Source: Trichaptum fuscoviolaceum
Taxonomy: Eukaryota; Basidiomycota; Agaricomycetes; Hymenochaetales; Trichaptaceae
Direction: 5' to 3'
Assembly: GCA_910574455.1 (NCBI GenBank)
Contig: CAJSYZ010000007.1
Coordinates: forward strand, 372,001 to 436,000
Length of the DNA stretch: 64,000 nucleotides
The notes beneath the pieces were generated by a model. It did no database searches, was not told the DNA's origin, and saw only the letters and a program-made list of their open reading frames with translations. How positions within the stretch are numbered: position 1 is the first letter of the stretch; each line of letters opens with the position of its first letter. A program made the position numbers and the translations under genes. This document shows, piece after piece, positions 3,834-54,814 of the stretch.

Positions 3834-3909
3834 CGCTGGTCGGCGGTACGGGTGCGGGGGTAGAAGTAAAGAGCGTGAGGGTGTCGAGTCCGAGCGGCGG
3901 TGAGCCAGG

Positions 3910-3920
3910 ACTTTTGACCT
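3910..3920 (-). promoter_or_regulatory. X primer-binding site (self-priming type)
   Basis: Next to the inner end of the LTR the minus strand reads AGGTCAAAAGT. The same 11 bases occur on the plus strand inside the LTR at 4218-4228, so the element RNA beginning ACTTTTGACCT can fold back and pair with this site perfectly. The LTR match lies about 33 nt downstream of a TATA-like ATAAATA on the minus strand, where transcription should start. Self-priming is my inference from this geometry. Confidence 0.7.
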
Positions 3921-3922
3921 AA

Positions 3923-4752: not shown

Positions 4753-5266
4753 AAATCCCTTTCTTCACCTAGTAGCTTGGGCACTGAGTCATTGAGATAA
4801 GCTGTGAAGCAAGAAGTCTAATACTAACGATGATGAACCCAGGAAATTAGAAAGTGTTGCATGTCGGAGACCTGTTACGTCTCAACTTACGGTCTCGTAT
4901 AGTTGGGGAACGCAACGTTAAGTTGCTCAGTGATAGCGGAGCTAGGGCTCGACACTAAGTGTTGTATGGACAAAGGCCTACGATGTAGAGTAGAGAGAAA
5001 CAGATGTATAGCAGAGACTAGAGACGGGGGGTTTGACAAAGGAGATCGAACTTAGAGTTCGATCATGCTAAGTACAGGGGTTTATATACTACAGCTGCGG
5101 AGCAAGGGTCCATCGGAAGATGAGTAAGAAGAGAACAATAAGAAAGTAGACGATAGGCTACTAATAATAGTGTGAGAGCGGTGGGCAGAGGGTTAGGGCA
5201 AAGGGTACATGTGTAACGGCTGAGGGTTGAGGGTTACATCGGAGGATGACTGAGCAGAACAAGAAT

Positions 5267-8013: not shown

Positions 8014-8016
8014 GAC

Positions 8017-14326: not shown

Positions 14327-14871
14327 TGTTACGTTCACGGCTTCGGAAGACTTATCACGGAAATGATAAGTGACAAAAGCGTTGTTTGTGAACAAACAAG
14401 TGGTGAGATAAGAGTGGGCGCTTTAACGAGGCTCTCTTAAGCTCGGAAGTCGTGGGTGAACAGAGTCTTTGGCACGATGGTGTGAAAGACTATAGGAGGA
14501 TTGACTTAAGTGTCATCCGAAGGCCTATGTACAGGGGTTTATATACTACAGAGGGAGAAACATAAATAGAACGCGCTTCTGGGGCTAGCTGGGGCTAACT
14601 GGGGCTAACTGGGGCTAACTGGGGCTAACTGGGGCTAACTGTGAAACAGGGGAAATGGGGCTAACTGGGGCTACGTAGGGCTAACTGGGGCTATGGTAAA
14701 GCGAAGGGGCAATGTAAGCAAAGAGGCAGTAAAAGGGGGCTACCTGGGGCACCGAAGGTTAAAGGTAAAAAGGTTAAATGGTAAAGTCCGAGGGACAAAG
14801 GTAAGCGTAGCCTAATCGGGTTACGTGAGGTAAACAAAGGTAAACATGGTCCGTATGCTTGATGCATAACA
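14327..14871 (-). mobile_element. B 3' LTR
   Basis: It starts TGTTACGTTC and ends GATGCATAACA. It is identical by eye to 27945-28489. It shares a core-promoter stretch, GTACAGGGGTTTATATACTA, with the otherwise different LTR of element A. Confidence 0.95.
14581..14640. repeat. 10-bp tandem repeat GGGGCTAACT in the B 3' LTR, G-quadruplex-prone
   Basis: Six head-to-tail units (the first GGGGCTAGCT) with a strict 10-bp period, followed by looser copies to about 14690. Four or more G4 runs with 6-base loops meet the usual quadruplex pattern on the plus strand; the element RNA (minus sense) would carry the C-rich strand. The other LTR has the same array at 28199-28258. Confidence 0.9.
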
Positions 14872-15067: not shown

Positions 15068-15808
15068 TCAAGAGAAATGAAAATCGGAAGGTAAGGCTGC
15101 TGCGATAGCAAGCCAGTCTATGCCGGGTTGGGGGTCAGGTCGATAGAGTGGAGGAGAGGGATGTTCGTTTGGTCTAGGTGTGTGTACAACATAAGGGGGT
15201 GAAACCGGGGTTGGAGGTTGCTGAGGCTCTGAAGGCTGTTGAGGCGCGTTCTGAACATCAAACTCGTTCCGTTTTGCTGGATCAATGATAGGCATGTTTT
15301 CTTGATCATGGTAGGCGGTGGGAAACTCGGGTGGGGGTAGAGCAATTGGTGATGGGGGAGGGAGGGGTACTGGGTCGACAAATCGAGGGGGTTCTTCAAG
15401 GTGTCCATCGTCTAGAGTGTAAGCCAGTAAACGTTCAAATTCATACTCCGTGAACTCATCAGCTAGTTGTCCCATCATCACTTGATTCAGTCGACGAATG
15501 ATCACTTGAACGAAGCGAAAGTTGAATCGCTTATGTCCGCCGCGATGCTGATCAATGTAGTCTTGCAGTTGGGCGAGTAGTTCATGCATGACGTTGAGAG
15601 TGTAGACTGAGTGGTGAAAGGGGCGCTGAGTCGAGTCGAGGACATATGGTAAGAGTCCGCTGTGAAGGAGTGTGGCCGAGTACTGTTGACGAGTAGGTTC
15701 CGAGAGGGTAAACGCCTGATTGGGGAGGAGGGATTCGGTAGGGCAACGAGGAGGAGGGGGACTATTCTCCTTCGTGAGGGTTCCGCGCCGGGTTCGGATG
15801 GGCGGCAT
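15068..15808 (-). CDS. B ORF3d: last accessory frame
   Basis: An ATG at 15806-15808 opens about 246 residues, overlapping the end of ORF3c (15762) by about 47 bp. The first half is predicted helical (VYTLNVMHELLAQLQDYI, FVQVIIRRLNQVMMGQL) and the second half is a Pro-rich tail. It sits in the same position as A ORF3d (7135-8013) and also starts MPP. No known domain was recognised; the helical start might mediate protein contacts. Confidence 0.55.
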   Translation of the reverse strand: MPPIRTRRGTLTKENSPPPPRCPTESLLPNQAFTLSEPTRQQYSATLLHSGLLPYVLDSTQRPFHHSVYTLNVMHELLAQLQDYIDQHRGGHKRFNFRFVQVIIRRLNQVMMGQLADEFTEYEFERLLAYTLDDGHLEEPPRFVDPVPLPPPSPIALPPPEFPTAYHDQENMPIIDPAKRNEFDVQNAPQQPSEPQQPPTPVSPPYVVHTPRPNEHPSPPLYRPDPQPGIDWLAIAAALPSDFHFS

Positions 15809-16445
15809 GGTGAAGGGGGCAATACAGGCAGCACTCACAAGTACAGAAAGGGTCTCCTGGGTAGGGTGCAAAGTGAGCGTGCAAAGATCCCTTGTGGCGA
15901 ATTCTCCGGGTGATGTAGGGCGTGTACGGAAGGTCAAGGACGATTTTGAGACCAAGTAGAAGAGGGGGGGCGTGCTCTGGGTTGAAGAAAGTGTGCCTAA
16001 GCACTAACTTCACGAGTTCCGGGAAGGGTGAGCAACGTCGAAGTCGTTCAACGTTGACGTGGGGGGTGAGCTTCGGATCGAACAGATAGTGTTGTACCAG
16101 ATCAACAGGACCAAGAGGGCCGTACTGGGGGTGAGTGGGGCGTGGGCTTGGTGGAGGTGAAGGGTACTGGAGGGGTCCGGTGACAGTGTTGTGTCGGAGG
16201 AGGTAAGTGGTGGGCCAGTCGTCGGCGTTCCAACCGGGTTCGTCGGCCGGGAGGGACCAAAGATTGGAACCGAATTCCGAGTCGGCTGGTCCAGGCTGGA
16301 GTTCTTCTTCTTCTTCTTCGTCAAGGAAATCAAATTTTAAGGGGGAGGGATAGAAAAAGGGGGCAGTGGCTGCGAGACGTTGTTCAGGTGTTTCGGAAGG
16401 CGGTAGTTGATAAGTTGGGATGGGAGTGTTAAAATTGAAAGGCAT
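15762..16445 (-). CDS. B ORF3c: Cys-rich accessory protein
   Basis: The first ATG after the ORF3b stop is at 16445 (MPFNFN). The 227-residue product has an acidic run (DEEEEEEL), a folded-looking part (VDLVQHYLFDPKL, LVKLVLRHTFFNPEHAP) and ends with DPFCTCECCLYCPLHH. The last two blocks are conserved in element A (8017-8469), which supports selection on the protein. The frame is open upstream to 16916 but overlaps ORF3b there. Function unknown; the Cys cluster suggests metal binding. Confidence 0.6.
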   Translation of the reverse strand: MPFNFNTPIPTYQLPPSETPEQRLAATAPFFYPSPLKFDFLDEEEEEELQPGPADSEFGSNLWSLPADEPGWNADDWPTTYLLRHNTVTGPLQYPSPPPSPRPTHPQYGPLGPVDLVQHYLFDPKLTPHVNVERLRRCSPFPELVKLVLRHTFFNPEHAPPLLLGLKIVLDLPYTPYITRRIRHKGSLHAHFAPYPGDPFCTCECCLYCPLHHAAHPNPARNPHEGE

Positions 16446-16488
16446 AGAAGGTAAAGGAATAGTTCTGGGTCTGGGGGTAGGTGGGGGA

Positions 16489-17169
16489 TTAAACAAGGTT
16501 TGTCTGGTCGAGGTGGGACTGTTGTAAAAATATGGGAAATACGGATGCGAACGAAAATCGGGGGTTACTGTTGGCGTCGTCGTCGTAGTCGGTTGAGGAA
16601 GAGGAGGAGGAGGAGGGTGAGTTGGAGTCGGTGGAGGCGTTGACAAGTGTGTCGTCGCTGTAATTCGTAGTGGTGAAGGTAAAGGGGGTGCTGGTTGCCA
16701 GAGGGGGGGAGAAGATGTCCCGGGGGTTGACTGTTGTTGGGATGGGGCTAGGATTTGGAGAAAAGGGTTCGAGGTCTGGCAGGGAGTCGATAGGACTGGG
16801 TGCCGGAGGTGGTGGAGTCTGCTGGGATTCCAGGGGGGTGCTAGAGGTGAGAGGTTGCTCTTGCTTGTGGTCACGAAGTTTTTCGATGGTGATTTTATAG
16901 AACTCGAGGAGTGCATACAGCTGGAGTGCGTATCTCACTTTGGTCGGACCGGGGGAGTTTCGGATGCGGTTATTGATGTCTGGGATGAGTATGTCCAATG
17001 GTTCCTTATCAGGATGATCGTCCTTAAACACAAAATAGAACAGATGAGAATTGAGAATAATCTGTTCGTCATGCGATGACTGGTTCGCTATCACTTGGAG
17101 TTCCGTCAGCTGGCGTTCCACTAAGCTGGAAATGAGAGGTGGGATCGACTCCTGTGATGAAGAACTCAT
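16489..17169 (-). CDS. B ORF3b: accessory frame, helical start and disordered tail
   Basis: The ATG at 17167-17169 gives about 226 residues. The N-terminal 110 residues look folded and helical (LISSLVERQLTELQVIANQ, KVRYALQLYALLEFYKITIEKL). The rest is Pro/Ser/Thr-rich with a poly-Ser run. It overlaps the end of ORF3a by about 100 bp. I know no family for it. Part of the matching region in A is destroyed by the kinase-carrying insertion, so no comparison is possible here. Confidence 0.5.
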   Translation of the reverse strand: MSSSSQESIPPLISSLVERQLTELQVIANQSSHDEQIILNSHLFYFVFKDDHPDKEPLDILIPDINNRIRNSPGPTKVRYALQLYALLEFYKITIEKLRDHKQEQPLTSSTPLESQQTPPPPAPSPIDSLPDLEPFSPNPSPIPTTVNPRDIFSPPLATSTPFTFTTTNYSDDTLVNASTDSNSPSSSSSSSTDYDDDANSNPRFSFASVFPIFLQQSHLDQTNLV

Positions 17170-17419
17170 TATTCGGCCCAAGGCCAACGTAAATATGAGT
17201 GCTTTGTCCTAGATAGTGTAGTTCTAGATCGTGTATCCAGAAGGTGGTGGGTCGGCGTTCTGGGAAGATGTACCAGATGAGAAAGAGATGGAAGAGTCGG
17301 AAAGAGGTGCGTGTGATGATAGGGTGGATTTGTAAATGAGCTATCCAGATGAGAAGTCGGATAATGTCATAGAAGGTGTGCATGAGAATGGGGAGAAAGT
17401 GGGGTGGCTTCTGGTGCAT
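17069..17419 (-). CDS. B ORF3a: hydrophobic accessory frame
   Basis: The ATG at 17417-17419 gives 116 residues. Residues about 14-55 are strongly hydrophobic with interspersed His and Arg (YDIIRLLIWIAHLQI, FRLFHLFLIWYIF) and might contact membranes. The C-terminal half is soluble-looking. It begins about 230 bp after the pol stop. An env-like role is conceivable by position but unsupported, since there is no signal peptide and no Cys pattern. Confidence 0.35.
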   Translation of the reverse strand: MHQKPPHFLPILMHTFYDIIRLLIWIAHLQIHPIITRTSFRLFHLFLIWYIFPERRPTTFWIHDLELHYLGQSTHIYVGLGPNNEFFITGVDPTSHFQLSGTPADGTPSDSEPVIA

Positions 17420-19063: not shown

Positions 19064-22000
19064 ACTGCTACCAGCAGACTGCATACATGAGATACAGCCT
19101 TGCTGTGCATAACAGGATGTCAGTTTTTGCATTTTACTCAGCCATTGCTAGCATTCTCATGCATGAGATTACAGCAAATGGCTGAGCAAAATTAATCCTT
19201 AACTAGGGTACATACTGCATATTTAATGTGCAAATCTAATAATCTAATGCATATTACTTTAATGTCTTTGTATACCCACCGCTTTTTTGAGCTAATTATA
19301 ACACTCAGGCACTGCTGATTGACAGTATGCTGTAATAGATTAGAATTTAATAATTTCCATCCATTTTGGGATTTGAGGCACACCAGGGTCCAGGACCCTG
19401 AGGTCCAGGTCACTTGGTGCCTGCTGCTGCTTTGGGGTTGTGGGAATAAATTCAAATTAGCCTTTGCAGGCCCTACAGGCCTTTAAAAATAGCGCAAAAA
19501 TAGCCAAAAAATCAGAAAAATATTCCTGGGCACTGCCGCTTCGCCCTAGCGTGGGAACTACGCTTCTGGACGACCATATTAGGGTACCATTATGTTCTGG
19601 GCCCCACTGGGCCCTTCCTAAAGCGGTAAAAATCATCATAAAATAGATAATTATATTCATTTGCACCTGCATATATGCAGGCTTCCCCTGGGCTTACCAG
19701 CAGCAGATAAAATATGCTAAAATCGGATTATATTAGTAGAAGCATACTTAAGATGAATTGGATAGCTATATATGGTAATACTAGCTGGGAACATGTATAG
19801 AACAGCAAAACATGTTCTATTTATAATGCTATTCAAATGGGGCTTATTTCACCATATTGGGGTACCTCCGGAATGCAAATTTTGATGGGAATCCAATGGT
19901 GCATACTAGACGAGCTGAAACGGGCTTTGACGGCGCCAAAATACGCATTTTTCATTTTGTTACAGATTATTCTTTTATTTAAATGTTATTTTTGTTACAG
20001 CACTTCTACTGCATGTAATGGCACGTATAGATAGCCGAGATGGTAGAGAATGACGAGGAGAACAATAATATGAGCTTAGAATAGCTACGCGGCGGCTATA
20101 TATAGCTGTAGCACACCAACTCGTTTCGGAGTGCATGCAATTATTGTTTCTCTCTCATATACATATACACACAGTATCTACGTGTTCTAATAGGTTTGAA
20201 TAGCTCTCTATATATGCCTTTCATGCTGTACGAAGTTTCACGGCAATCGGAGCTCATTCTGAATTGATATAAGGCATACAATTTTCGAAAAGAATGGTTA
20301 ATTTTAATTTATTGGGAGAGTTATAGGTCAGGCACAGAGTGCCAAACATTCACTATAAGTATCCTAAACATAATCCAATTGCATGTTTGGGATGCAGGTG
20401 GAATATGGAAGTCATATCTAACATTGTAGGATGGGATGCTATGTGTGATATTAGAAGGTACATGTCTTATCAGAAACACATATAACTTACAGTTTCCACC
20501 TGCATCCCAAACATGCAATTGGATTATGTTTAGAGTACTTATAGTGAATGTTTGGCACTCTGTGCCTGACCTATAACTCTCCCAATAAATTAAAATTAAC
20601 CATTCTTTTCGAAAATTGTATGCCTTATATCAATTCAGAATGAGCTCCGATTGCCGTGAAACTTCGTACAGCATGAAAGGCATATATAGAGAGCTATTCA
20701 AACCTATTAGAACACGTAGATACTGTTTGGGATGCAGGTGGAATATGGAAGTCATATCTAACATTGTAGGATGGGATGCTATGTGTGATATTAGAAGGTA
20801 CATGTCTTATCAGAAACACATATAACTTACAGTTTCCACCTGCATCCCAAACATGCAATTGGATTATGTTTAGGATACTTATAGTGAATGTTTGGCACTC
20901 TGTGCCTGACCTATAACTCTCCCAATAAATTAAAATTAACCATTCTTTTCGAAAATTGTATGCCTTATATCAATTCAGAATGAGCTCCGATTGCCGTGAG
21001 ACTTCGTACAGCATGAAAGGCATATATAGAGAGCTATTCAAACCTATTAGAACACGTAGATACTGTGTGTATATGTATATGAGAGAGAAACAATAATTGC
21101 ATGCACTCCGAAACGAGTTGGTGTGCTACAGCTATATATAGCCGCCGCGTAGCTATTCTAAGCTCATATTATTGTTCTCCTCGTCATTCTCTACCATCTC
21201 GGCTATCTATACGTGCCATTACATGCAGTAGAAGTGCTGTAACAAAAATAACATTTAAATAAAAGAATAATCTGTAACAAAATGAAAAATGCGTATTTTG
21301 GCGCCGTCAAAGCCCGTTTCAGCTCGTCTAGTATGCACCATTGGATTCCCATCAAAATTTGCATTCCGGAGGTACCCCAATATGGTGAAATAAGCCCCAT
21401 TTGAATAGCATTATAAATAGAACATGTTTTGCTGTTCTATACATGTTCCCAGCTAGTATTACCATATATAGCTATCCAATTCATCTTAAGTATGCTTCTA
21501 CTAATATAATCCGATTTTAGCATATTTTATCTGCTGCTGGTAAGCCCAGGGGAAGCCTGCATATATGCAGGTGCAAATGAATATAATTATCTATTTTATG
21601 ATGATTTTTACCGCTTTAGGAAGGGCCCAGTGGGGCCCAGAACATAATGGTACCCTAATATGGTCGTCCAGAAGCGTAGTTCCCACGCTAGGGCGAAGCG
21701 GCAGTGCCCAGGAATATTTTTCTGATTTTTTGGCTATTTTTGCGCTATTTTTAAAGGCCTGTAGGGCCTGCAAAGGCTAATTTGAATTTATTCCCACAAC
21801 CCCAAAGCAGCAGCAGGCACCAAGTGACCTGGACCTCAGGGTCCTGGACCCTGGTGTGCCTCAAATCCCAAAATGGATGGAAATTATTAAATTCTAATCT
21901 ATTACAGCATACTGTCAATCAGCAGTGCCTGAGTGTTATAATTAGCTCAAAAAAGCGGTGGGTATACAAATTAAATATATGTCTATCCATTTAATACATT

Positions 22001-22177
22001 TAAGTACCCACTAAATAGAATATACTGGCTGTATCTACACTCTCATGTATATGACTGCTGTAATGGCTGAGCATAATGCAAAAACTGTCATCTAAATATG
22101 CACAGCAAGGCTGAATCTCATACATCAGATCTATCAGCAAATGCTGCATGTGAAGCATTTCATTTGCTGGTAGGACT
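19064..22177. mobile_element. Element C: MULE-like long-palindrome transposon inserted in B pol
   Basis: It is 3114 bp, flanked by the 9-bp direct repeat GAATATCTC (19055-19063 and 22178-22186). The ends are ASTSCTACCAGCA inverted repeats with two mismatches. A 9-bp duplication and long inverted arms point to the Mutator superfamily, though a foldback origin is also possible. It has no transposase, only short frames repeated on both arms. Because it sits in the young element B, its own insertion must be very recent. Confidence 0.85.
19265..21972. repeat. Near-perfect inverted arms of C with a duplicated loop
   Basis: Arms of about 1.13 kb (roughly 19265-20401 and 20836-21972) mirror each other around 20618.5 without indels; I noted a single mismatch near 20230/20995. 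The outer 200 bp (19064-19264 and 21973-22177) are only loosely similar. The 434-bp centre contains a 340-bp tandem duplication (20385-20724 and 20725-21064), each unit a loop core plus a piece of the right arm. Transcripts across it would form a very long hairpin. Confidence 0.9.
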
Positions 22178-22186
22178 GAATATCTC

Positions 22187-24203
22187 CAGTTTCTTTGCGT
22201 ATTTGGAGGTGAAGGTCATCGACATCGATGATGTTCCTGTCATCTTCTTCGGCTTCTTCAATTCGGGTGGCTAGGAGTTCCATTTCTTTGAGAAAAACTT
22301 TCTCTGGTAGAAGTGTAACTTCGTTGCTAAGTTCTCCTTCCGTTTTAAAATGGTCCGCACGTCGGGATAGGGCATCGGATTGGATCATGTGTTTTCCTGG
22401 TATGGCTTGTATCTTGTAATTGTACCTTGATAGTTCATTCTGCCATCGAGCTTGTCGAGGGGTCAAGCGTTGGGGTTGTCTCCAATAAGTCAGATTCTTG
22501 TGGTCGCAATGAATTGTAACTGTATGCGGGCTTCCAAGTAGATAGTGTCTCCACATTTGGAGTGCTCGGATAATAGCAAATAATTCTCTGTCATATATCT
22601 GCCAGTTGCGTTGTGTCGGGTTGAGAGCTTGCGAAATATAACCTATGGGTTTGAGTTGACCGTTTTCGTCATGTTGGCGTAGTGCTGCGCCGGTAGCTAC
22701 GGCTGAGGCGTCCGTTTCAAGATAGAATGGTTTGTGTGGGCCGGGTTGCATAAGGAGGGGTTCCTTCGAAAAGAGTTCCTTGAGTGTCTGAAAAGCCTTT
22801 TCACATTTGTCTGTCCAGACAAAAGGTGTGTCCTTCCGTTTAAGTTGATCGAGTGGTCGGCATATAGTTGCATAGTTTGGAATGAATCTGCGATAGAAGT
22901 TGGTAAAACCTGTAAATGATCTAACGTCTTTGAGACATTTCGGAGTGGTCCAGTCAAGTATCCCTTGTATCTTGGAGGGGTCTGTCTTGATCTTTGATTC
23001 CGAAATAATGTAACCAAGAAATGGTACTTCGAGTTGGTGAAATCGGCATTTTGCTGGTTTGACGTAGAGTTTATTGTCCTTTAGGATTTGAAAAACTTCT
23101 TTGGTGTTTTCAATGAGCTGCTTGAGAGTTGGGGCATGAATGAGTAGGTCGTCCATGTAAACAATGACCTTGTTCTGGCGTATTTGCTCTGATAGAATGT
23201 CATTCATGAAGCGTTGAAAAACCGCAGGTGAGTTGCATAGACCGAAAAACATAACGGTTGGCTGATAGAGTTTCCTGTTGCATACGAAGGCTGCTTTCCA
23301 TTGATCAGATTCCTTGATGCGAATGTTGTGATAACCTTGTCGGATATCGAGGGTAGTGAAGTATTTGGATCCTCGGAGTTGATCAAGTAGTTGCTGCGAG
23401 TTTGGCATAGGATATGCATCTTTGACTGTATGCGAGTTGAGGTATCTGTAGTCCTGTACTGGTCGAAGTGTTCCATCTTTCTTATCAATAAAGAAGAAAG
23501 GTGATGCCATTGGGGAGTTAGATTCCTTGATAAATCCTTTGTTGAGCAAGTCGTCAATTAATGTAGTGAGAATCGGTTGTTGATGGTATGGGACCGGGTA
23601 CGGTTTGTGAATTTTCGGCACAAAGCTTGGTAATGTTTTGATCTCCATATCATAGGGTCGGGCAGGGGGGTAGGTTTGGATTTCATTCTCTGAGAAAATG
23701 TCCGCATATTCCAAATATTCGTCTGGAATATTAAGTTTCTCCTTTGGCTTTTGGTTTTGTTGTTCGAGTCGAGTAGAGACTGTGATCTTGTTGATAGTGA
23801 TCGTGTCATCATTCCAGTTAATCTGGGGCTTTGCCTGTTTGAACCAAGGTAGTCCTAGAATAACATCGTCGCTTGGAATGTGTGTCCGATAAAAGATTGT
23901 CAAGGTTGAATGAGGGTGGGTGAGATTCAATCGAATCCGTTCTGAAACTGTTCCATTCTTGTTCAGAGTTCCATCAGCATTGCTAACTTGTAAAGCTTTA
24001 TCAAGTTTATGCATTTTGATGTTGAGCTTATCAACTAAGTCCGAGTTGATAAAGTTCAGTTGTGCTCCGGTGTCAAGAAGGGCATTGATAGTGATGAGGC
24101 GTCCGTTAACGAGTAATTTGACCGGGATTCGAAATGATGAGATGTTGCCATTCAGAACAACAGTGTTGAGTTGAACCGGGTTAACCAACTCTGAGCTGTT
24201 CAA
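22187..24203 (-). CDS. B pol, 5' part: protease, RT, RNase H
   Basis: The frame begins in the -1 phase at the gag stop (see the slippery site at 24203-24209). It carries protease ALLDTGAQ (Asp near residue 44), RT with KKDGTLRPVQDYR and YMDD (near 23155), and RNase H with LETDASAVATGAAL and QIYDRELFAI. A tether with an acidic stretch EEAEEDDRN follows, and the frame is interrupted at DIQ by element C. No frame break is seen apart from C, which fits the identical LTRs. Confidence 0.95.
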
Positions 24204-24209
24204 AAATTT
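24200..24209 (-). promoter_or_regulatory. B gag-pol -1 frameshift site, A AAT TTT TGA
   Basis: The gag frame ends GCA AAT TTT TGA. A AAT TTT is a canonical X XXY YYZ slippery heptamer in the zero frame, directly before the stop, and pol is open in the -1 frame from the next codon (TTG AAC). Element A has the same ten bases at the same place. A stop immediately after a heptamer is a common trigger for slippage. Confidence 0.8.
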
Positions 24210-25684
24210 GCAGCATCGTAGTTGCCATATTCATCGAAATCTTCATTGTCGAGTTCATCCAAAGTGTTGAATAGTTCCTCTCGAGACTGATCATCAAGAC
24301 TGGTAATAATCTCGTTGATTTGATATGCCTTGTCTTCCAGGGTGTCCGTTTCATCATAGTCATCGTCATCCACTTCCATTGCATTGATTCGGGGCTTGAA
24401 TCTGCGTTTAGCACCTGGGAAGCGTCCTTGGGGTTTTCCTCTAGGTTTGAAAGAGTTCCTAGGACGGGATGGGCGTTTGGGACATTTATTCGCCATATGA
24501 CCGGGTTTTTCGCAATAGAAACAAAGACCTTTGTCTCTAGCTTCCTTCTGCTTCTCTGGGGTGAGCTTGTTGAAATACATAGTATTGATATTGAATTCTT
24601 CGAGCTTGTCTTCGAGTGAAGGTTCCGGTTCCGGTTCCGGGTTGGAGTCAACTTCCATTTCATGAATTCGATATCTGCGATTGAATCGGCGTTTCGGATA
24701 GCTGTACTTTCTCCTAAAGAATTGTGAAGGTTTCTGTTGATGAGGGGGATTCATCCTTTCGTATTGTAGACCAAATTTGAGGGCATTCTCGTAGTACGGG
24801 TCCATGAGAGGTTTGCCTGATGTATCCTTTGTCATATTGTCTTCAATTCGGATTAGTTCCCTTTGGATCGAAATTGGAAGGCCTTTCTTGAACAAATTGG
24901 TAAGAACTGTGGTGTCTTCAATTCCTGCATCGTAAGCTAGTCGTTGGAATTCATAGACATATTGATCTGTGCGCATGCCGGGGGTTTGCTTGAGTTTCAT
25001 AAGTTCTTCATATGCGTCTGCAATGTAGTCTGCAGATATGAAGTGTTCTCGGAAATCTTTCTTGAATTTTGCCCAAGTATAATCCCATGGTTTTCCGTCG
25101 GCTAGTCTCTTGTTTCCTTTGGTAATGATGCTGTTTATGAAGGTACCAGCTGATCCTAGATTGCAGAATGTGGCTGCAAGTCGAACCTTGTCTTCATCTG
25201 TAGTGTAACCGGGTGTGAGAATGATGTAATTCTCCATGAGATCGAGCCATCGTCTAGCATCCTTGCGACTGCCATCGAAGTTGAATGGTTTATTGGCTCC
25301 ATTCCTGCGTTCTTCGATTTTGTCCGGGGGTCCGGATGTGTTGACTGCTCCTCCAGAAGTTCCCATTGGTGGCGATGGAGGTGGAGGTGGCGGTGGAGGT
25401 GGCGGTTCAGGGGTCGGAGATTTAGACTTTTTGGGTTTGTAGTCAGGGTCGAAGGGATCGACGTAGTCTAATTTGTCTTCTTCCTTCCTTGGAGGTTCTT
25501 CTTCCTGCTTCGGAGGTCTTTCTGGTGCTTTTCCTTTGTCTACAGATGGGGGTGTATCTGTTACTCCTCTAAGTTTGAGGGCTTCGAGTCGATCTGTTAG
25601 AGACTTGACTGATCGCTTGGATTGCTCAATTTCAACGTCAACTTTAGGTTTGTCCGTGCCTAAGATGGAGGGTCCTGCAAGCAA
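24200..25684 (-). CDS. B gag: capsid and CCHC zinc knuckle
   Basis: The capsid domain starts about FNFDGSRKDARRWLDLMENY and includes ADAYEELMKLKQTPGMRTDQYVYEF. The CCHC knuckle is CFYCEKPGHMANKC, with basic stretches around it and an acidic C-terminus ending AANF. The first ATG in frame is only at 25366 (MGTSGG), after a 10-residue proline run. The same frame is open upstream, without any ATG, to 26236. That upstream part encodes conserved-looking sequence (ERCWYRARGFHSEY, FYRRYNTNYQAVDPEDAEERY), so a longer Gag may be made by shifting from the frame ahead of it. Confidence 0.9.
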   Translation of the reverse strand: MLAGPSILGTDKPKVDVEIEQSKRSVKSLTDRLEALKLRGVTDTPPSVDKGKAPERPPKQEEEPPRKEEDKLDYVDPFDPDYKPKKSKSPTPEPPPPPPPPPPSPPMGTSGGAVNTSGPPDKIEERRNGANKPFNFDGSRKDARRWLDLMENYIILTPGYTTDEDKVRLAATFCNLGSAGTFINSIITKGNKRLADGKPWDYTWAKFKKDFREHFISADYIADAYEELMKLKQTPGMRTDQYVYEFQRLAYDAGIEDTTVLTNLFKKGLPISIQRELIRIEDNMTKDTSGKPLMDPYYENALKFGLQYERMNPPHQQKPSQFFRRKYSYPKRRFNRRYRIHEMEVDSNPEPEPEPSLEDKLEEFNINTMYFNKLTPEKQKEARDKGLCFYCEKPGHMANKCPKRPSRPRNSFKPRGKPQGRFPGAKRRFKPRINAMEVDDDDYDETDTLEDKAYQINEIITSLDDQSREELFNTLDELDNEDFDEYGNYDAANF

Positions 25685-26232
25685 TTGGCTGTGTCTATGC
25701 CGGGTGGAGCTTGCGAGTAAAGGATGAGCAACTGGGGAAGTTTCTTCCTTGGGTAAATGAGTAGAAGGTCGGGGAGTATTGGGGTCGGGTTGGGTGGTAG
25801 GAGGTGGGGTACTTGGGGGTGCAACTGGGGATGTGGCTGCAGTTAATGCGGTAGATTGTGAAGTGTTTGTATCAAGCGGTGAAGGGGGGAGTAAGTGGGT
25901 AAGAGTAAGAGGGGATGGTCTGGACTGGGGTTGATTTAGTCCGTGTAACTCTTGGTAACGTTCCTCAGCGTCTTCCGGGTCAACTGCTTGATAATTTGTG
26001 TTGTATCTGCGGTAAAATTCTCCGGGGTGGTGTCGATATCTTTTTGGGATAGCTTTCCACTCTCTTCCTTGCTTGCTGAAGTAGATGTATTCGGAATGAA
26101 ATCCTCGAGCTCTATACCAACAGCGTTCCGAGTAGTCGAAGTGTGAATTTTCCGGGGGGTAGGGAGGTAGTGATTCAAACGAGGTGTCGAGGTGAGGGGT
26201 GTCCGGTAGTTGTGATCGAGGTGCCAGAGTGT

Positions 26233-26760
26233 CTAATCAGTAGTTTGGATTCCGTTTGTCTGATACTGTGCCGGAATCGGGGGTACTGGAGGAATGGGGG
26301 TGGCTTGTCGAATGGGACGGTTCAGAGGTGAAATGAGTGGAATGTCACTTGGGGATAGGCTAGGTTGACAACCGCAGCGATTGATGTAGGTTTGAACGTC
26401 TTCTTCAACGTCAGGCCAATAGCAAACGTAATCTAGATGTTCCCTAGTGGTTTGGACTGTGTAATGATAGTTGGTTTCCGGATGGATGTGGGCTGCGTAT
26501 ATGAGATCGTTCCGAAGGGCTTGGTTGCTTCCAACGTAGGCTCGTCCTTCTGTCCAAAGTAAGTCTACCCTTAGTTTCCAATTGGTGGGGAATCGACGGT
26601 TTCGGATAAGAAATGCCAATGATGTGATTACTGAATCTCCGTCATAGCTTTTCTTGATTCGTTGATCTAGTCCGTTGAGTTTCAGAAGTCTAAAGTTCTC
26701 TGCAATTTCTGTCTTGTCTGATATACCAGGTTGGATAGGGTGGAGTCGACTAGTTCTGGG
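26233..26760 (-). CDS. B pre-gag ORF2: diverged integrase-type zinc domain, no ATG
   Basis: This frame is open from about 26760 to the TAG at 26233-26235 and contains no ATG. Its middle resembles the region before and across a Ty3 integrase zinc domain: LLWTEGRAYVG, then HIHPETNYHY, REHLDYVCYWPDVEEDVQTYI and RCGCQP. The final CxxC of integrases is CxC here. No catalytic core follows; instead the gag frame takes over in the -1 phase right at the stop. Element A has the same domain in the same place. Entry could be by frameshift from ORF1, by an unrecognised intron, or by non-AUG initiation. Confidence 0.6.
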   Translation of the reverse strand, partial: PRTSRLHPIQPGISDKTEIAENFRLLKLNGLDQRIKKSYDGDSVITSLAFLIRNRRFPTNWKLRVDLLWTEGRAYVGSNQALRNDLIYAAHIHPETNYHYTVQTTREHLDYVCYWPDVEEDVQTYINRCGCQPSLSPSDIPLISPLNRPIRQATPIPPVPPIPAQYQTNGIQTTD

Positions 26761-27373
26761 GATGATTAGATTTGCCAGGTTGCCTATTTGATTTATGAAT
26801 AGAGCTGCTAAGTCTTCTTCTGATCCTTCTGAGCTGGGATTGGAATGGTCCAGGGGTAGGTGTGTCGAGCTGGATAGGTGAACCTAGAAGGGGGATGGGA
26901 GTTCCTTCGCGTTTGATCTCTTGTTTGATCGGAGGGGGAGGGGGTGTATGCTGTTCCTGGATCCTTTGAGTAACAGGTGTTACAGGTGGTAATTGCCTGT
27001 TATATGTTCCTATTTCGCTTGTCCAATAGTGTTGAGGATCTTCGAAGTTAGATGATACTGAGCTAAGGTAGGTTTCCCTTGTGAATTCTTGTCCGAGTCG
27101 AGGGGCTGGGTACGAAGTAACAAATGGATTGGTTACTATGCTTTCTCGAGCTTCGGATGGGGGTTCTGCTCTCGTTGTCTGCTCTGTATCAGATAGTTCG
27201 AGTTCGGATGGGGTGTGGGGTGGGGTAGAGTTGGTAGGGATGTCTGTGATGCGGATGGGGTCAAAGATAAAAATCTCCTGCACGTCTTCCAACAATCTTT
27301 CCGTATGATTGGCGACTCGTATTAAGACCTTCAGGTTGGGCACTTCCTTGGGTGATCTCTTCCCTTGAGCTAC
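26750..27373 (-). CDS. B pre-gag ORF1, no ATG start
   Basis: The frame is open from about 27373 to the TAG at 26750. It begins near KVLIRVANHTERLLEDVQEIFIFDP and continues as a Pro/Glu/Ser/Thr-rich linker. The start resembles A ORF1 (IFFIYHTNPNAFFYLEEFLPDRIRL), so I take it as the element's first coding block. The first start-like codon is GTG. A short frame in another phase (27261-27491) lies just upstream and may hold the true beginning. Function unknown. Confidence 0.45.
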   Translation of the reverse strand, partial: VAQGKRSPKEVPNLKVLIRVANHTERLLEDVQEIFIFDPIRITDIPTNSTPPHTPSELELSDTEQTTRAEPPSEARESIVTNPFVTSYPAPRLGQEFTRETYLSSVSSNFEDPQHYWTSEIGTYNRQLPPVTPVTQRIQEQHTPPPPPIKQEIKREGTPIPLLGSPIQLDTPTPGPFQSQLRRIRRRLSSSIHKSNRQPGKSNHPQN

Positions 27374-27499
27374 TTGTTGTTACAACACGAGTGGGTTCTC
27401 CTAACTCTCTTCTCGAGTGCTCGTCCGGTATGTTACTTCGGTTCGCTGGATAACAACTTCCTGTTGTGTTCACCGGTATTTCTGTCGTCAACGAGTGAA

Positions 27500-27944
27500 G
27501 CTAATGTCTCTCTGGATCTTCGCTATATGCGTCTAGCAGTTTCACTAGGTGGATCGGACCGTTCCTCTGCTTGCTTTCTTCTCTTCAAGTTACCTGGGCT
27601 GGCTCTGCTTTCTGATCGGGTCGCGAACCTCAAATCCCGCTTACACCAACCTTAATGTAACAAGGACCGTTAATTCTGGGCGTGAACCTGCTTAATGCTT
27701 TGGGTCTGTTTCGAGTGTCTGTGTAGATGAATACACAACACAGTTATGTGTCAATCGTATGTCGTTCAAGTTCTTTCTTTCCTACTTTGAAAGGTTAGCA
27801 ATCAATGGCCAGTTGTTCACTTACTTTGAAAGTATTCCGGATTAGTTCTTGTAGGGTGGATTGTTTAATTCCGATGGTGGAAAGTGGAGTCAAGTGCAAT
27901 AGTCTTGGCTGCTTTCCAGGTTATGGAAAGAAGTCAATCCTAAT
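27500..27944 (-). other. B leader between PBS and first frame
   Basis: This is an untranslated leader of about 0.45 kb. The PBS is at 27931-27941 (minus strand AGGATTGACTT), three bases from the LTR. I found no long frame with an ATG here. Confidence 0.5.
27931..27941 (-). promoter_or_regulatory. B primer-binding site (self-priming type)
   Basis: Minus strand AGGATTGACTT is perfectly complementary to AAGTCAATCCT of the element RNA, encoded in the LTR at 28115-28125. That LTR site lies 38 nt downstream of TATATAA (28157-28163), as expected for the RNA 5' end. Confidence 0.75.
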
Positions 27945-28489
27945 TGTTACGTTCACGGCTTCGGAAGACTTATCACGGAAATGATAAGTGACAAAAGCGT
28001 TGTTTGTGAACAAACAAGTGGTGAGATAAGAGTGGGCGCTTTAACGAGGCTCTCTTAAGCTCGGAAGTCGTGGGTGAACAGAGTCTTTGGCACGATGGTG
28101 TGAAAGACTATAGGAGGATTGACTTAAGTGTCATCCGAAGGCCTATGTACAGGGGTTTATATACTACAGAGGGAGAAACATAAATAGAACGCGCTTCTGG
28201 GGCTAGCTGGGGCTAACTGGGGCTAACTGGGGCTAACTGGGGCTAACTGGGGCTAACTGTGAAACAGGGGAAATGGGGCTAACTGGGGCTACGTAGGGCT
28301 AACTGGGGCTATGGTAAAGCGAAGGGGCAATGTAAGCAAAGAGGCAGTAAAAGGGGGCTACCTGGGGCACCGAAGGTTAAAGGTAAAAAGGTTAAATGGT
28401 AAAGTCCGAGGGACAAAGGTAAGCGTAGCCTAATCGGGTTACGTGAGGTAAACAAAGGTAAACATGGTCCGTATGCTTGATGCATAACA
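27945..28489 (-). mobile_element. B 5' LTR with promoter
   Basis: Same sequence as 14327-14871. On the minus strand it has TATATAA at 28163-28157 and a predicted start site near 28125. The GGGGCTAACT array is at 28199-28258, upstream of the promoter in the direction of transcription. Confidence 0.95.
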
Positions 28490-28494
28490 CCTTC

Positions 28495-28647
28495 TGCTCC
28501 GGTGTCGAGTAAGGCGGTGGCTTTGTGGGTTTTCTGATTATATAGGAACGTGATTGGGATTCGTAAGGCGTGATTGTCGTTAATTGAATTGATGAGCAGC
28601 CTGATGTTCAACGAGAGAGAGGGCTGCGGGAGCTCTTCGTTGTTCAA
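28495..28647 (-). CDS. A pol, 5' fragment: protease with the active-site Asp
   Basis: It starts in the -1 phase at the gag stop and reads through IRLLINSINDNHALRIP to ALLDTGAEG, where element B interrupts. The rest of pol is 10991-14326. The insertion lies two codons after the catalytic DTGA. Confidence 0.9.
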
Positions 28648-28653
28648 AAATTT
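28644..28653 (-). promoter_or_regulatory. A gag-pol -1 frameshift site, A AAT TTT TGA
   Basis: The gag frame ends GGA AAT TTT TGA with pol open in the -1 frame (TTG AAC AAC). The slippery heptamer and stop are identical to those in element B. Confidence 0.78.
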
Positions 28654-30026
28654 CCTTCTTCAACTCGATCGAAGACTTGGTTGACTGCGTCATCATCAAG
28701 GCCAATAAGGAGTTGTTGAATCTGTGCGGCGCGATCTTCGGCTGAGAGTTCGCCTTGATCTTGGTCTTCGTTCTCGGGTTCAGAGTATTCATTTTGATCA
28801 TCGGCTGAAGTTAATTGGCGCATATTTTTGGACCTTGGTGTGCGGGAGTTGGGCCATCAAGTTTTTGAGGTACGTTTGGGATGAGGTTTGGGACACTTGG
28901 CGGTGCGATGTCCGGGTTGATGGCAATTGAAGCAAAGGTTTTCCTTCATATGACGTTGGAATTCTTCAGTCGAAAGTCGTGATATAAAGAAGCTGTAGAT
29001 GGCTAGGTCGACCAATTCTTCTATATCATCGTTGTCATTGGAAGGTAATGTTTCATTTGTGTCATTTGCATTGTTTGAGATGGCTCGAATCTGACGATTG
29101 TATTGTCGCATAGGTCGTCGTTTGAAGCGGTTCTCTCCGGAATAGGATTGGTGGGGTTGGGATTCCATTGAATGAGCTATCTTGTAATTGGTGTCCAGTC
29201 GAGTGGCAAGCGAAAACCAATCTTCCATGTTGGTCGGTTGTGGACTACATGCAAGTAGTTTCATTCGAAGATTGTCATTGAGTCCCATCCAGAATGCATT
29301 GCGTTGGGAAAGGTATTCTGTGATACGAGCTTGCATGATGAGTGTTTTGAATTTGAGAATGTAGTCTTCAATAGATCCTCGCTGTTTGAGCTTGGCAAGT
29401 TCCATGGTAGCCTTGATTGTGAGTTCGGATGTTATGAAAGTGCGGTGGAATTCTTCAAGGAATTCTTCAAATGTGTCGGTTTCAAAACGTCCGCTGGCCA
29501 TGTATTGCATTGCAAATGGTCGGGATCCGCGAAGACTGCAATGGGCAAGCACAAATTCGATGCATAGCTCATCTGTGTCATAGATGTGTCGGTTGGCTCG
29601 TAGATGGATTTGGACTTGGAGTAAAAAGCGATCAGCATCTTCTTGGGTTCCGTCGAAAGGTTGAATTTTAGCCATGGTTATGGGTCGATCGTGTGCGGGT
29701 CCGTCTCCTTGGTTGTTATTGTCTGCTGCTCCTCCACCTCCAGCTCCTCCGCCTCCTCCTCCTCCTTCATCGTCTCCTCCTCCTCCTCCGTTGTCATTCA
29801 GGTTTCCTCCGGGTGGTCCTCCTCCTCCTCCTCCTTCATCTCCTGCGGGTGGATCACCAAATCCCCATCCTCTCCATGCAGGATTTTGTCGGCCTCCTCT
29901 GCCTCCTCTTCCTCCTCTGCCTCGACCTTGGAGATGTCTTAAGTGGAAAAAGGTACTGATACTTTCTTCTCCAGGTGGGGGTCGGAACATTGAGCGGGTA
30001 GTTTCCGTGACAGTTTGGGTGGCCAT
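28644..30026 (-). CDS. A gag: RGG-rich start, capsid, CCHC knuckle, one in-frame TGA
   Basis: The ATG at 30024-30026 is followed by an RGG-rich segment and long Gly runs, then the capsid (PFDGTQEDADRFLLQVQIHL, TMELAKLKQRGSIEDYILKF) and the knuckle CFNCHQPGHRTAKC. A TGA at 28857-28859 stops the frame, but the same phase continues with coding character (EYSEPENEDQDQ, LLIGLDDDAVNQVFDRVEEGNF) to the TGA at 28644. That ending corresponds to the B Gag C-terminus. The 28857 stop is therefore probably a point mutation of CGA. Upstream the phase is open with two more TGA codons, near 30165 and at 30546. Confidence 0.85.
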
Positions 30027-30780
30027 AGTACTAATGGATAGAGGTTCGATGTGAGGGCGGGTGTAAGAGAGATATGGTTTCGATGGGATAGGGGGAAGTG
30101 TGGGTGTTCGGCGTGAGGGGGTAGGAGTTTCTGGAGCAACGGAGCTGCCTGATTGAGAGGATCATCTGAAGAGGTTTCGATCAAGAAGTCCGTGAGTGGG
30201 TGAGTCTGAACGAGATCGATGGTAGTCGCTGGGTTGAGGGTCGGAAGTGGAAGTTGGTTGGGGTTCTTGTGGTGGTTGTGGTAGCCGATTGGGATGTCGG
30301 CGATAATACTCTTCTTTAAGCTTTTTCCAGTTTGGAGTGTGACCTTCGTATATTTCTCGTAATTCTGGACCAAGTGTATGAGCTACTACCCAGGAATCAG
30401 CAGTTGGGTTGTAGATCCAAGGGGTTTCGGTAGGTTCTCCGTTGGCGTCAGGAAGATGGAAGTATTGTGTTGCTTCGTTGAAGATAAGAGTGGTTGGGAA
30501 CGGTGGTAGTGGGGGTTGGATGTGTTTGAACTCTCCTGCTAGACTTCAACGAGCAAGGTCTTCCCAGTTGGGGGTATGAGTGACGAAGAATTGTCGAGCT
30601 TCCTCAGCAGAGTTTGCTTCGATTGGGGTCCACCGTTGTAGTATTTGATTATATGACCACGATCGATAAGTTTTGTTACCGATCTTATAGTAAAAGAAAT
30701 TCTTTTCGGTGTCAAAGAAGAGTCGATTGTGTGGTGGTGGAGCGTCTGGATACTGAGGAACAGTAGTCTGTGTAGGTATT
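30027..30780 (-). pseudogene. A pre-gag frame in phase with gag, two TGA stops
   Basis: In the gag phase upstream of its ATG, the sequence encodes two similar modules. One ends FFVTHTPNWEDLAR (before the TGA at 30546) and the other contains LREIYEGHTPNWKKLKEEYY (ending before a TGA near 30165). The repeated HTPNW core and the match in style to the B frame upstream of its gag suggest real former coding sequence. No ATG was seen. Both stops are TGA, compatible with C-to-T change at CGA. Confidence 0.5.
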
Positions 30781-30883
30781 GGTTCTTCCGTGGTTTTTGA
30801 AGTGGTTTCTTTGTTGGTTTTGCCTGTTGTAGAAGATGAGGCTGTGTTTCGAACCGTCTGTTTGCCTTTGTTCGCCGTGGTGA

Positions 30884-31492
30884 TTAATCGGTTCCGGATT
30901 GATATCCGTAACTGTCTGAATCGTAGTTTGTAAGGGTGTAGTCCGTAACACTAGCAATGTGGGGTGAATCTTCCGGGGGGTCAATTGGTGGTGCAAGATA
31001 GTTGTGAACTATGTTTTGCGGAGTGGGTTGGTGGTGTTGGCAACTACACTGATAGATGTAGTGGTTGACGTCTTCGCTGATACTATTCCAACAGAAATGT
31101 CGGGTTACAAAGCGAACAGTTTCAGCTTTGGTGCAATGAAGTTGTTCTCCGTGATTGTCAAAATGGACGTAGTTTATGAAGAATCGGCGTAGGTGAGTTT
31201 CTCGAGGGATGAATAATCGAGTGTGGTTCCAGAGGAGTCCGTATTTGAAGATCCAAGGTTGGTGGTTGTCGCGTGAGTACTGCAGGTATCCAACTGTTTG
31301 GGTGTAATTGTAATACCGGTCGTCGAGTATAGTTCGGATTTGGTTTAGGATGTCGTCGAACTCTTCGGCAAAGGCGAGGAATCGGTTTCGGATGAGGTCT
31401 CTGGTTGAGTAGATGGGATCGTCAAGGGCTGGAAGTGATAGGGTGTTCGCCACGATTGTGGTAGTGTGTAGTGTATGCGTAGAAGTCGGCAA
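30884..31492 (-). CDS. A pre-gag ORF2: diverged integrase-type zinc domain, no ATG
   Basis: The frame of about 200 residues starts at a TTG at best. Residues about 80-155 follow the integrase zinc-domain plan: WIFKYGLLWNHTRLFIPRE, VHFDNHGEQLHC (His 110 and His 114), FVTRHFCWNSISEDVNHYIY, then CSC (Cys 149 and 151). As in element B the Cys pair is CxC rather than CxxC, and no catalytic core follows. The gag phase is -1 relative to this frame, again as in B. A second zinc domain in the leader protein might bind element RNA or DNA or partner with the pol integrase; this is inference. Confidence 0.6.
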   Translation of the reverse strand: MPTSTHTLHTTTIVANTLSLPALDDPIYSTRDLIRNRFLAFAEEFDDILNQIRTILDDRYYNYTQTVGYLQYSRDNHQPWIFKYGLLWNHTRLFIPRETHLRRFFINYVHFDNHGEQLHCTKAETVRFVTRHFCWNSISEDVNHYIYQCSCQHHQPTPQNIVHNYLAPPIDPPEDSPHIASVTDYTLTNYDSDSYGYQSGTD

Positions 31493-31830
31493 TCGTCTCC
31501 ACAGATATGGACTAGTCGGATTCGATCGGGGAGAAACTCTTCTAGGTAGAAGAATGCGTTGGGGTTGGTGTGGTAGATGAAGAAGATAGAGTCGGGTTGG
31601 ACAATTAGACTAGCAGTTTTTGTGATGGACCAAACTGTATCGTCACAGTACTTGGTGAAACTGTATGTGTCGAATTGATAACAGTTGGCTACAGAGTATT
31701 GGACTTGGTATATGTGTCTTCCTGCGTTGTCGAGGTGGTTGGTGTCGGTGTGGGTAAGGAGCAAAGCGTTTTGTGGGATAGAGGGTGCCGTGATGGATAG
31801 ATGTTATGACGTAAAGTGAAGTGGTTTTCT
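31345..31830 (-). CDS. A pre-gag ORF1, no ATG start
   Basis: Open from a TAA near 31800 down to 31345, with no ATG in frame. It overlaps ORF2 by about 150 bp in a different phase. It encodes NAGRHIYQVQYSVANCYQFD, SIFFIYHTNPNAFFYLEEFL and a Ser/Thr/Pro-rich tail. The middle resembles the B ORF1 start. ORF2 is again reached by a -1 shift from here. Function unknown. Confidence 0.45.
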
Positions 31831-32399
31831 GTTTGACCTTTGTTTAGTCTTGAGGGTTGTCAAGCAATAACGTTATGAGATGATCGACGGTGGGGCAGTG
31901 TTTGTGATGCTTTGTTCAATGTTAACAGATGAACTGTTCTTCGATTTCTGGATCGGTCTCCCTTCGATTTCTGGATCGGTCTCCCTTCGCTATTACCAAG
32001 CGGCATGTCTGCGAGTTATGCTCGTTGTCCAATAGGCGTCCCAAAGACTAGGCTAGCAGCTTTATGCCTTCTTTGCAGGTACTGAGTCCTCTTCCTGTGT
32101 GCACAGCTACGGTCCCGTTTGGTATGACAGAAGTTGGTTCCTTTGTAACGCTACTGTCCGGGGTTTAATCAACCAATGAGCTGGAGCGGTTTTCTTAATC
32201 TTCGGATCACGACTCTCGAAGTTTTCCTTGGCCTCCCTCTTGCAATCGATGAGCACCTTGCTACACTGAAGGGATTACCTCAAGCGGATGTTCTTCTGGA
32301 CTAGATGGGCTTACAACTGGTTAGTAGTAAGTGGAGCTATGGCTCAACACCTTAGTCGTAAAGACGGATGTCTTCGACGGTAGATAAGTTTGATCTAAT
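31831..32399 (-). other. A leader with PBS next to the 5' LTR
   Basis: About 570 bp without a supported frame. A 17-bp unit, CTTCGATTTCTGGATCG, is repeated in tandem near 31938-31985. The PBS occupies 32386-32396. Confidence 0.5.
32386..32396 (-). promoter_or_regulatory. A primer-binding site (self-priming type)
   Basis: Minus strand AGATCAAACTT pairs with AAGTTCGATCT of the element RNA (LTR 32570-32580) at 10 of 11 positions. The one mismatch is a CG-to-CA change. The LTR site is 35 nt downstream of TATATAA, and the PBS is three bases from the LTR, as in B. Confidence 0.7.
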
Positions 32400-32866
32400 T
32401 GTTACGTCTCAACTTACGGTCTCGTATAGTTGGGGAACGCAACGTTAAGTTGCTCAGTGATAGCGGAGCTAGGGCTCGACACTAAGTGTTGTATGGACAA
32501 AGGCCTACGATGTAGAGTAGAGAGAAACAGATGTATAGCAGAGACTAGAGACGGGGGGTTTGACAAAGGAGATCGAACTTAGAGTTCGATCATGCTAAGT
32601 ACAGGGGCTTATATACTACAGCTGCGGAGCAAGGGTCCATCGGAAGATGAGTAAGAAGAGAACAATAAGAAAGTAGACGATAGGCTACTAATAATAGTGT
32701 GAGAGCGGTGGGCAGAGGGTTAGGGCAAAGGGTACATGTGTAACATCGGGATTGGCTGAGGGTTGAGGGTTACATCGGAGGATGACTGAGCAGAACAAGA
32801 ATAGAAACAAATAGGGCAAAGGGTTCGGAGTAATGGGGGCCGCTGACATAGTAAGAAAACGTAACA
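32400..32866 (-). mobile_element. A 5' LTR
   Basis: 467 bp, TGTTACGTC...AACGTAACA, uninterrupted, with AGACC just outside (32867-32871). It carries TATATAA on the minus strand within the stretch shared with the B LTR and a predicted RNA start near 32580. It serves as the reference that fixes the hAT boundaries in the other LTR. Confidence 0.95.
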
Positions 32867-54768: not shown

Positions 54769-54814
54769 GGCAGTGATAATAGTGATTGAGCTAGAACACC
54801 CAGAAATCGGGCCA

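Follow-up and report, generated by a model that had tools for sequence, protein, structure and literature searches.

A candidate AUG-free gene with an integrase-type zinc domain upstream of gag in self-priming Ty3 elements of Trichaptum fuscoviolaceum

We analysed a 64,000-nucleotide stretch of the genome of the basidiomycete Trichaptum fuscoviolaceum (contig CAJSYZ010000007.1, C7:372001-436000; hereafter the window), whose minus strand carries two long terminal repeat (LTR) retrotransposons, A and B, with B nested inside the protease region of A. Upstream of gag both encode a region laid out like the tether and HHCC zinc domain of Ty3 integrase. On the evidence of the sequences, this block is probably the zinc-finger half of an extra translated gene, composed of two open reading frames (ORFs) termed ORFi and ORFii, that would be expressed without an AUG from the leader of self-priming chromodomain Ty3 elements.

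Results

The elements and their copies

The searched genome comprises 59.1 Mb in 12 contigs. The mating-pheromone family PF08015, typical of basidiomycetes, matches in none of 14 control genomes, and its one match over the cut-off here fits a basidiomycete. The genome contains a third family, C (reference L069), with the same pre-gag zinc ORF as A and B. Pfam identifies RVT_1, RNaseH, H2C2, rve, SH3_Tf2-1 and Chromo domains in pol, which is whole in C and in pieces in A and B, and the integrases of A and B end in SH3_Tf2-1 and a chromodomain. By their protease, reverse transcriptase, RNaseH and integrase order and terminal chromodomain, all three families classify as Ty3/Gypsy chromoviruses of the Tf1/sushi-like kind. 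The zinc block is present in 27 B and 42 A near-full-length copies and in 35 C-type full-length rows, and is therefore not a chance occurrence. A genome search with the zinc-domain profile PF17921 returned pol-type copies for all of its best 150 scored matches; distant families were not reached.

An integrase-type zinc domain before gag

The Pfam family Integrase_H2C2 (PF17921, cut-off 25.5 bits) matches the B block above its cut-off (E 9.2e-8, 32.5 bits) and the blocks of A (E 0.0016, 19 bits) and C (7.4e-4, 20 bits) below it, and BLASTP aligns the zinc ORFs of A and B at 31% identity across 74 amino acids (E 6e-9). Profile-profile comparison of the pre-gag domain with the zinc domains of the elements' own pol gives a probability of 94.4 (E 8.6e-8, 80 columns). 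Against the sequences of solved structures the profile places Ty3 on top (E 0.002), followed by the integrase of prototype foamy virus (PFV; 0.47). A similar picture is obtained from predicted structures: Foldseek first aligns the B model with Ty3 integrase (PDB ID: 7q5b; E 3.5e-4, probability 1.00) and then with PFV integrase, and the A model finds the same two integrases with probability 0.99 and a best E of only 0.038. The 10-residue mean of the predicted local distance difference test (pLDDT) is 54-78 at residues 101-170 of one model and 55-86 at residues 71-150 of the other. ORFii is thus predicted to have the fold of an integrase tether and N-terminal domain (NTD).

The domain has CxC in place of CxxC in A, B and C as well as in the database relatives P0001-P0003, and Pfam gives no match to the rve catalytic core in ORFii of any of the three families. 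In a tree of 11 sequences, built on a short alignment, the four pre-gag domains stand apart from the seven pol domains with a support of 0.967, which fits one old origin of the pre-gag domain, before the families split. B groups with C there at a weak support of 0.69, and the pol domains group likewise. B and C have diverged further in this region than in pol, where they are 79% identical: identity is 47% for gag, 40% for ORFi, 34% for ORFii and 32% for the gag extension described below.

An earlier note on this stretch, drawn up from its letters, had described a tether plus HHCC-type region before gag of A and B, with CxC and without a catalytic core. The comparisons above agree with it on each of these points; the blocks lie in the same places, on the minus strand. 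The profile and structure comparisons that it proposed, the search for other family members in this genome and the estimate of dN/dS given next likewise came out in its favour. The roles that it suggested for the block, in RNA binding, targeting or control of the main integrase, stay equal candidates on these data.

Coding constraint in the leader

Selection was measured within families A and B (C has too few copies) as omega, counting distinct changes against a real reference copy, with the expectation for each change derived from base changes of that kind and with that CpG state within the stretch concerned. Two of the 27 B copies (L026, L032) and one of the 30 A copies (L051) align poorly at their ends and were left out of these runs. 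For ORFii, omega is 0.27 (0.16-0.45) in B and 0.17 (0.09-0.28) in A, compared to 2.2 to 3.5 in the other two frames; with all copies and slightly different borders the values are 0.27 and 0.19. ORFi gives 0.45 (0.26-0.75) in B and 0.30 (0.14-0.52) in A. In the gag frame ahead of the gag ATG the values are 0.46 for B and 0.43 for A. Omega of the part of the leader that precedes ORFi is near 1, a value that lies within all six intervals. From its ATG, gag has an omega of 0.74 and 0.71 when all changes are considered, and of 0.31 and 0.37 for changes found in at least two copies.

The four zinc ligands are unchanged in every copy (27/27 B, 30/30 A). ORFii is without stops or gaps in 23 of the 27 B copies, the other four having a stop, and in all 30 A copies when counted from a GTG discussed below; the ORF is open in 33 of the 35 C-type full-length rows. 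Both exceptions, one of which is a 54% relative, have a stop. The gag extension is less often intact (16/27 B, 20/30 A), and its losses are mostly insertions or deletions. Taken together, these patterns indicate that ORFii is a live gene under strong purifying selection. A non-coding fossil was considered and is contradicted by the ORFii omega of 0.17-0.27 and the invariant zinc ligands.

A leader nearly free of ATG

We measured the leader from 30 nt past the TATA box to the gag ATG, which gives 2767 nt in the B reference (L020) and 2569 nt in an A copy (L045). It holds three coding segments without methionine, namely ORFi, ORFii and the upstream extension of gag. Considering copies with a recognised TATA box (one B and two A copies lack one), an ATG is absent from every frame in 17 of 26 leaders of B and 21 of 28 of A; the rest have 1 to 5. 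First-order Markov resampling of the leaders gives a mean of 21.9 ATGs for B and 19.4 for A, with a minimum of 7 in 500, and CAT, which is ATG on the opposite strand, occurs 51 and 54 times. The copies in the window have leader ATGs at 32006 and 30165 (A) and at 26645 (B).

Changes among copies point the same way. ATG-creating changes number 7 in the A leader against 20.5 expected, and no such shortage is seen in the gag body (A 14 versus 11.1, B 16 versus 15.9) or among CAT-creating changes in the leader (A 25 versus 23.3, B 24 versus 28.6). Sites at which an ATG is actually present number 7 among 25 B and 8 among 29 A copies. Eight database relatives (P0001-P0003 for ORFii, P0005-P0009 for ORFi) have no methionine past residue 1, and that first methionine we take to be the gene caller's start; four of them keep the frames at 58-71% protein identity over the aligned part. 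By contrast, in the ordinary element that lies inside L071 an ATG occurs 358 nt ahead of that of gag. We conclude from these comparisons that nearly all ATGs are kept out of the leader, whatever the frame.

The earlier note is to be amended in this respect. The block that it described does lie before gag, but it is only the second half of a longer ORFi-then-ORFii unit, and both the long open stretch by which the gag frame extends ahead of its first ATG and the near absence of ATG from every frame had been overlooked. The latter changes how the zinc gene must be expressed.

Self-priming and the start of the transcript

At a distance of 34-40 nt downstream of the TATA box lies a segment of 11-12 nt with complementarity to the site directly behind the LTR. 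In Tf1 and Tj1 this arrangement is called self-priming (PMC4600332; this and the papers cited below are drawn on as far as the passages available from them go). The complementarity is found in 25 of 27 B copies, with one more having a different 11-nt match and one having none, in at least 24 of 30 A copies (five have no match), and also in L070 and L071. By these matches the elements are of the self-priming type, with the 5′ end of the RNA predicted to be complementary to the primer binding site. From the TATA box and the self-primer we infer that the transcript starts at the self-primer; the last ATG of the LTR lies upstream of it in L070 and in both copies of the window.

Candidate joins and starts

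In B and C the passage from ORFi to ORFii requires a shift of +1, and the zero frame of the overlap reads CTT AG. The B heptamer is CTT AG(C/T)A, with CTT AG(C/T) kept in all 27 copies, and C has CTT AGG T at three distinct places (L069/L036, L037 and L038). Codon constraint switches frame in or near the ORFi/ORFii overlap in B, and near position 1650 of L040 in A. An intron at the join was rejected, since constraint is gap-free there at 90-nt resolution.

At the frame change in A stands a GTG; all 30 copies have it with A at -3 and G at +4. Stops in the ORFii frame are present in 14 of these copies, none of them from the GTG onward, which suggests that the ORFii frame is entered near this codon. 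Two C-type copies with CTC at the join, L070 (minus strand) and L074, have different single-base deletions near the shift site. These fuse ORFi and ORFii into one frame of 368 amino acids without methionine, which would be tolerable if the two form one protein.

For the gag extension, B has a CTG just past the ORFii stop; its A at -3 and G at +4 are found in all 27 copies, with variable bases in between. A CTG in the gag frame has the same context at six of six C-type loci (five distinct places), and so does an ACG in all 30 A copies, where the surroundings are invariant. Leucine is seldom encoded by CTG in these elements (7 of 121 leucine codons in B pol and 2 of 106 in C pol), though CTG makes up 3 of 21 in B ORFii. 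Even so, B ORFi (14 leucines), C ORFi (21) and the B extension (23) each have a single in-frame CTG, and it is the candidate start; the C extension (21) has two, of which the candidate start is one. In the window the A extension is interrupted by in-frame stops (30546-30548, 30162-30164); it is open in L073. Pfam gives no match for the extension, and a database protein search with gag found one remote match among the best 7995 candidates scored. We also observed in the extension a short aromatic-rich motif common to A, B and C (NRAWYR / ERCWYR / NRLFFD; window 24200-26236 and 28857-30950, L069 3605-5779), seemingly twice in A, that is not in Pfam. Gag is followed by pol through a -1 shift at A AAT TTT TGA in all three families.

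Proposed expression and its alternatives

In the mechanism that we favour, ribosomes would scan the leader from the cap. A minority would initiate at near-cognate codons: ORFi would be entered at CUG in B and C, ORFii at GUG in A, and a long Gag would start at CUG or ACG. In B and C a +1 shift at CUU-AG would carry ribosomes from ORFi into ORFii to give a single protein. The remaining ribosomes would find no AUG before that of gag and make Gag there, some slipping by -1 at A-AAU-UUU to produce Gag-Pol. Such leaky scanning would explain both the loss of ATG from all three frames and coding ORFs without methionine. The product may be an accessory protein of low abundance that joins or modulates integrase complexes, which is the least certain step. 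The role of the zinc protein is probably integrase-associated, because tether and NTD are the part of integrase used for multimerisation and DNA contacts. The complete account, in which near-cognate starts, a +1 shift, an extended Gag and leaky scanning along a leader of some 2.6-2.8 kb express an AUG-free block whose zinc module modulates the element's own integrase (as assembly factor, targeting adaptor or copy-number brake), is put forward tentatively, and we would sooner expect parts of it to fail than all to hold.

Several results weigh against this proposal. The ORFi/ORFii join differs among families, which is a main weakness: A would need a shift of -1 or +2, with no slippery site seen by eye, and the C-type places L070, L071 and L074 have CTC rather than CTT. 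In the B leader, ATG-creating changes number 14 against 23.8 expected on the reference background, and other starts are also below expectation there (CTG-creating 16 versus 23.4, GTG-creating 3 versus 7.6); in A these are not clearly so (19 versus 21.3 and 4 versus 4.7). Near-cognates of nine kinds with a purine at -3 and G at +4 number 37 in the B and 37 in the A reference leader, so choosing any one by context is weak. The structural models, with mean pLDDT of 44.5 and 51.1, are usable inside the domain only, and it is the domain by itself that ties the protein to integrase function. A strong stem-loop behind the gag-pol heptamer was also sought and rejected, as folding of 90 nt gave only -10.4 to -14.7 kcal/mol, without a control, and no stable stem.

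Other explanations of the leader have to be considered. Splicing, or a transcript from elsewhere (U3 or flanking host DNA), could provide the ORFs with an AUG; a long unspliced leader is unusual, LTR ATGs do lie upstream of the presumed start, and that start was placed solely by TATA box and self-primer. We nevertheless think this unlikely, as codon constraint continues without a gap across the ORFi/ORFii join and the shortage of ATG would go unexplained; moreover, most copies are ATG-free from the presumed start to gag, so that the element's own RNA has no exon to supply one. Equally improbable, in our view, is a single polyprotein of ORFi, ORFii, Gag and Pol made by successive recoding, with no separate start for the long Gag. 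The frames do abut, and in all three families the gag frame opens right beside the ORFii stop, but the step from ORFii to gag is -1 in A and B while in C it is the same frame behind two stops. No slippery sequence, in particular none for a -1 shift, was seen by eye between ORFii and gag, and B and C have a CTG in good context just past the stop.

Internal ribosome entry at the leader ORFs, without scanning, would agree with a stretch at the start of ORFi (AGGAAGTGCCCAACCTGA) whose conservation between B and C is at the nucleotide level. It has no need for the removal of ATG across the whole leader in all frames, and we give it a slightly smaller chance again. The shortage of ATG in all frames, and ORFs with no methionine available as a start, are also what one would expect of a dead integrase fragment in a long 5′ untranslated region that was purged of ATG for scanning to gag and makes no protein. 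That reading is highly improbable given omega of 0.17-0.27 beside wrong-frame values above 2, the invariant zinc ligands, an A ORFii intact from the GTG in 30 of 30 copies, and relatives that keep the frames at 58-71% protein identity. Expression of an extra zinc protein without AUG thus remains the explanation that we prefer.

Other features of the window

The coordinates of the features are collected in Table 1.

Table 1. Features of elements A and B in the window.
Feature	Position	Strand	Remarks
A 5′ LTR, aligned part	32400..32802	-	97.5% identical to partner 4873-5266
A self-primer TAAGTTCGATCT, putative transcript start	32570..32581	-	binding site of window copy, 32385-32396, mismatched at one base
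A ORFi, Met-free	31345..31803	-	constrained to ~31460
A ORFii open frame, Met-free	30884..31609	-	constrained from ~31453; candidate start GTG 31451-31453
A integrase H2C2 domain, HHCC with CxC	31025..31156	-	Pfam, Foldseek
A gag-frame extension upstream of gag ATG	30027..30878	-	candidate start ACG 30876-30878
A gag from ATG, capsid and zinc knuckle	28857..30026	-	window copy shortened by stop 28857-28859
A -1 slippery heptamer AAATTTT, then TGA	28647..28653	-	
A 3′ LTR, aligned part	4873..5266	-	
B 5′ LTR, 545 bp	27945..28489	-	100% identical to 14327-14871; target duplication GAAGG flanks B
B self-primer AAGTCAATCCT, putative transcript start	28115..28125	-	complementary to 27931-27941
B primer binding site, directly behind LTR	27931..27941	-	
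B ORFi, Met-free	26750..27379	-	candidate start CTG 27332-27334
B candidate +1 shift site CTT AGC A, ORFi/ORFii overlap	26806..26812	-	
B ORFii open frame, Met-free	26233..26883	-	
B integrase H2C2 domain, HHCC with CxC	26374..26526	-	second Cys 26368-26370; Pfam, Foldseek
B gag-frame extension upstream of gag ATG	25367..26227	-	candidate start CTG 26225-26227
B gag from ATG	24200..25366	-	
B -1 slippery heptamer AAATTTT, then TGA, into pol	24203..24209	-	
B 3′ LTR	14327..14871	-	

Between pol and the 3′ LTR, on the minus strand, are further ORFs of 155-390 amino acids (15068-17208 in B, 7135-8484 in A), for which Pfam gives nothing over its cut-off. They look alike by eye between A and B, for instance in a cysteine-rich end (CTCECC... 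/ CTCSCC...), and are possible accessory genes. The pol of B is split between 22134 and 19061 by an inverted repeat (19220-22017) with arms of 1198 nt that are 98% complementary and spaced by 402 nt; this repeat has the appearance of a fold-back insertion. Within the B LTR, ahead of the TATA box, there is a run of CCCCAGTTAG-like direct repeats (about 28208-28311). A third Ty3 element, of ordinary type, lies past A's 3′ LTR (131-4055, minus strand); its gag-protease-reverse transcriptase ORFs are like those of the element inside L071. Four repeat families at 53470-59410, 72-84% identical and all about 4.64 kb apart, are probably a tandem gene duplication.

Comparison with known systems

Should the proposal be correct, conserved proteins of a group of retrotransposons would escape gene prediction based on AUG, and an AUG-free coding leader about three times the 900 nt of rice tungro bacilliform virus (RTBV) would offer a natural system for finding out how far eukaryotic ribosomes can scan and how near-cognate initiation and frameshifting work together on a single RNA. 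A further, testable question is why an element would keep a separate integrase NTD alongside a complete integrase. Searches of one library of open papers, on pre-gag integrase domains and on non-AUG expression in retrotransposons, turned up no report that we recognised as combining an AUG-free leader with a core-less integrase domain before gag, which is not proof of absence.

Individual components have clear parallels. A longer Gag, in frame, is made from an upstream CUG as glycosylated Gag of murine leukaemia virus, and the candidate long Gag is similar in its upstream in-frame CUG; Pfam gives no match to the extension of A, B or C. Additional ORFs ahead of gag-pol are a known feature in general (PMC8220671), the plant Ty3/Gypsy element Ogre has a long ORF of 550 codons and unknown function between LTR and gag (PMC1142308), and Petunia vein clearing virus (Caulimoviridae) has integrase sequence upstream of gag in direct frame (PMC2774666). 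Neither a pre-gag ORF nor a pre-gag integrase is thus without precedent. The passages on Ogre mention no integrase domain or ATG shortage, and the Petunia virus is a pararetrovirus, whereas here an LTR element also keeps the complete integrase in pol. The closest structural and profile matches of ORFii are the N-terminal extension and HHCC domain of Ty3 integrase (PDB ID: 7q5b) and the NTD of PFV integrase, from which it differs in having CxC for CxxC and in standing free before gag, without a catalytic core or C-terminal domain.

Similar precedents exist for expression. The +1 sites CUU AGG C and CUU AGU U, of Ty1/ABP140 and EST3 (PMC5009743), resemble the B heptamer CTT AG(C/T)A and its C counterpart CTT AGG T, but the seventh base differs, and the sites here would join leader ORFs instead of gag and pol. 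For RTBV it has been established experimentally that about 10% of ribosomes start at an AUU and that leaky scanning proceeds over 900 nt without an internal AUG (PMC5902531). RTBV and the badnaviruses are like A and B in having long ORFs without internal AUG, with the first AUG at the downstream main ORF; the differences are that A and B are LTR retrotransposons, that their leader is three times as long and that the mechanism proposed for them is read from sequence.

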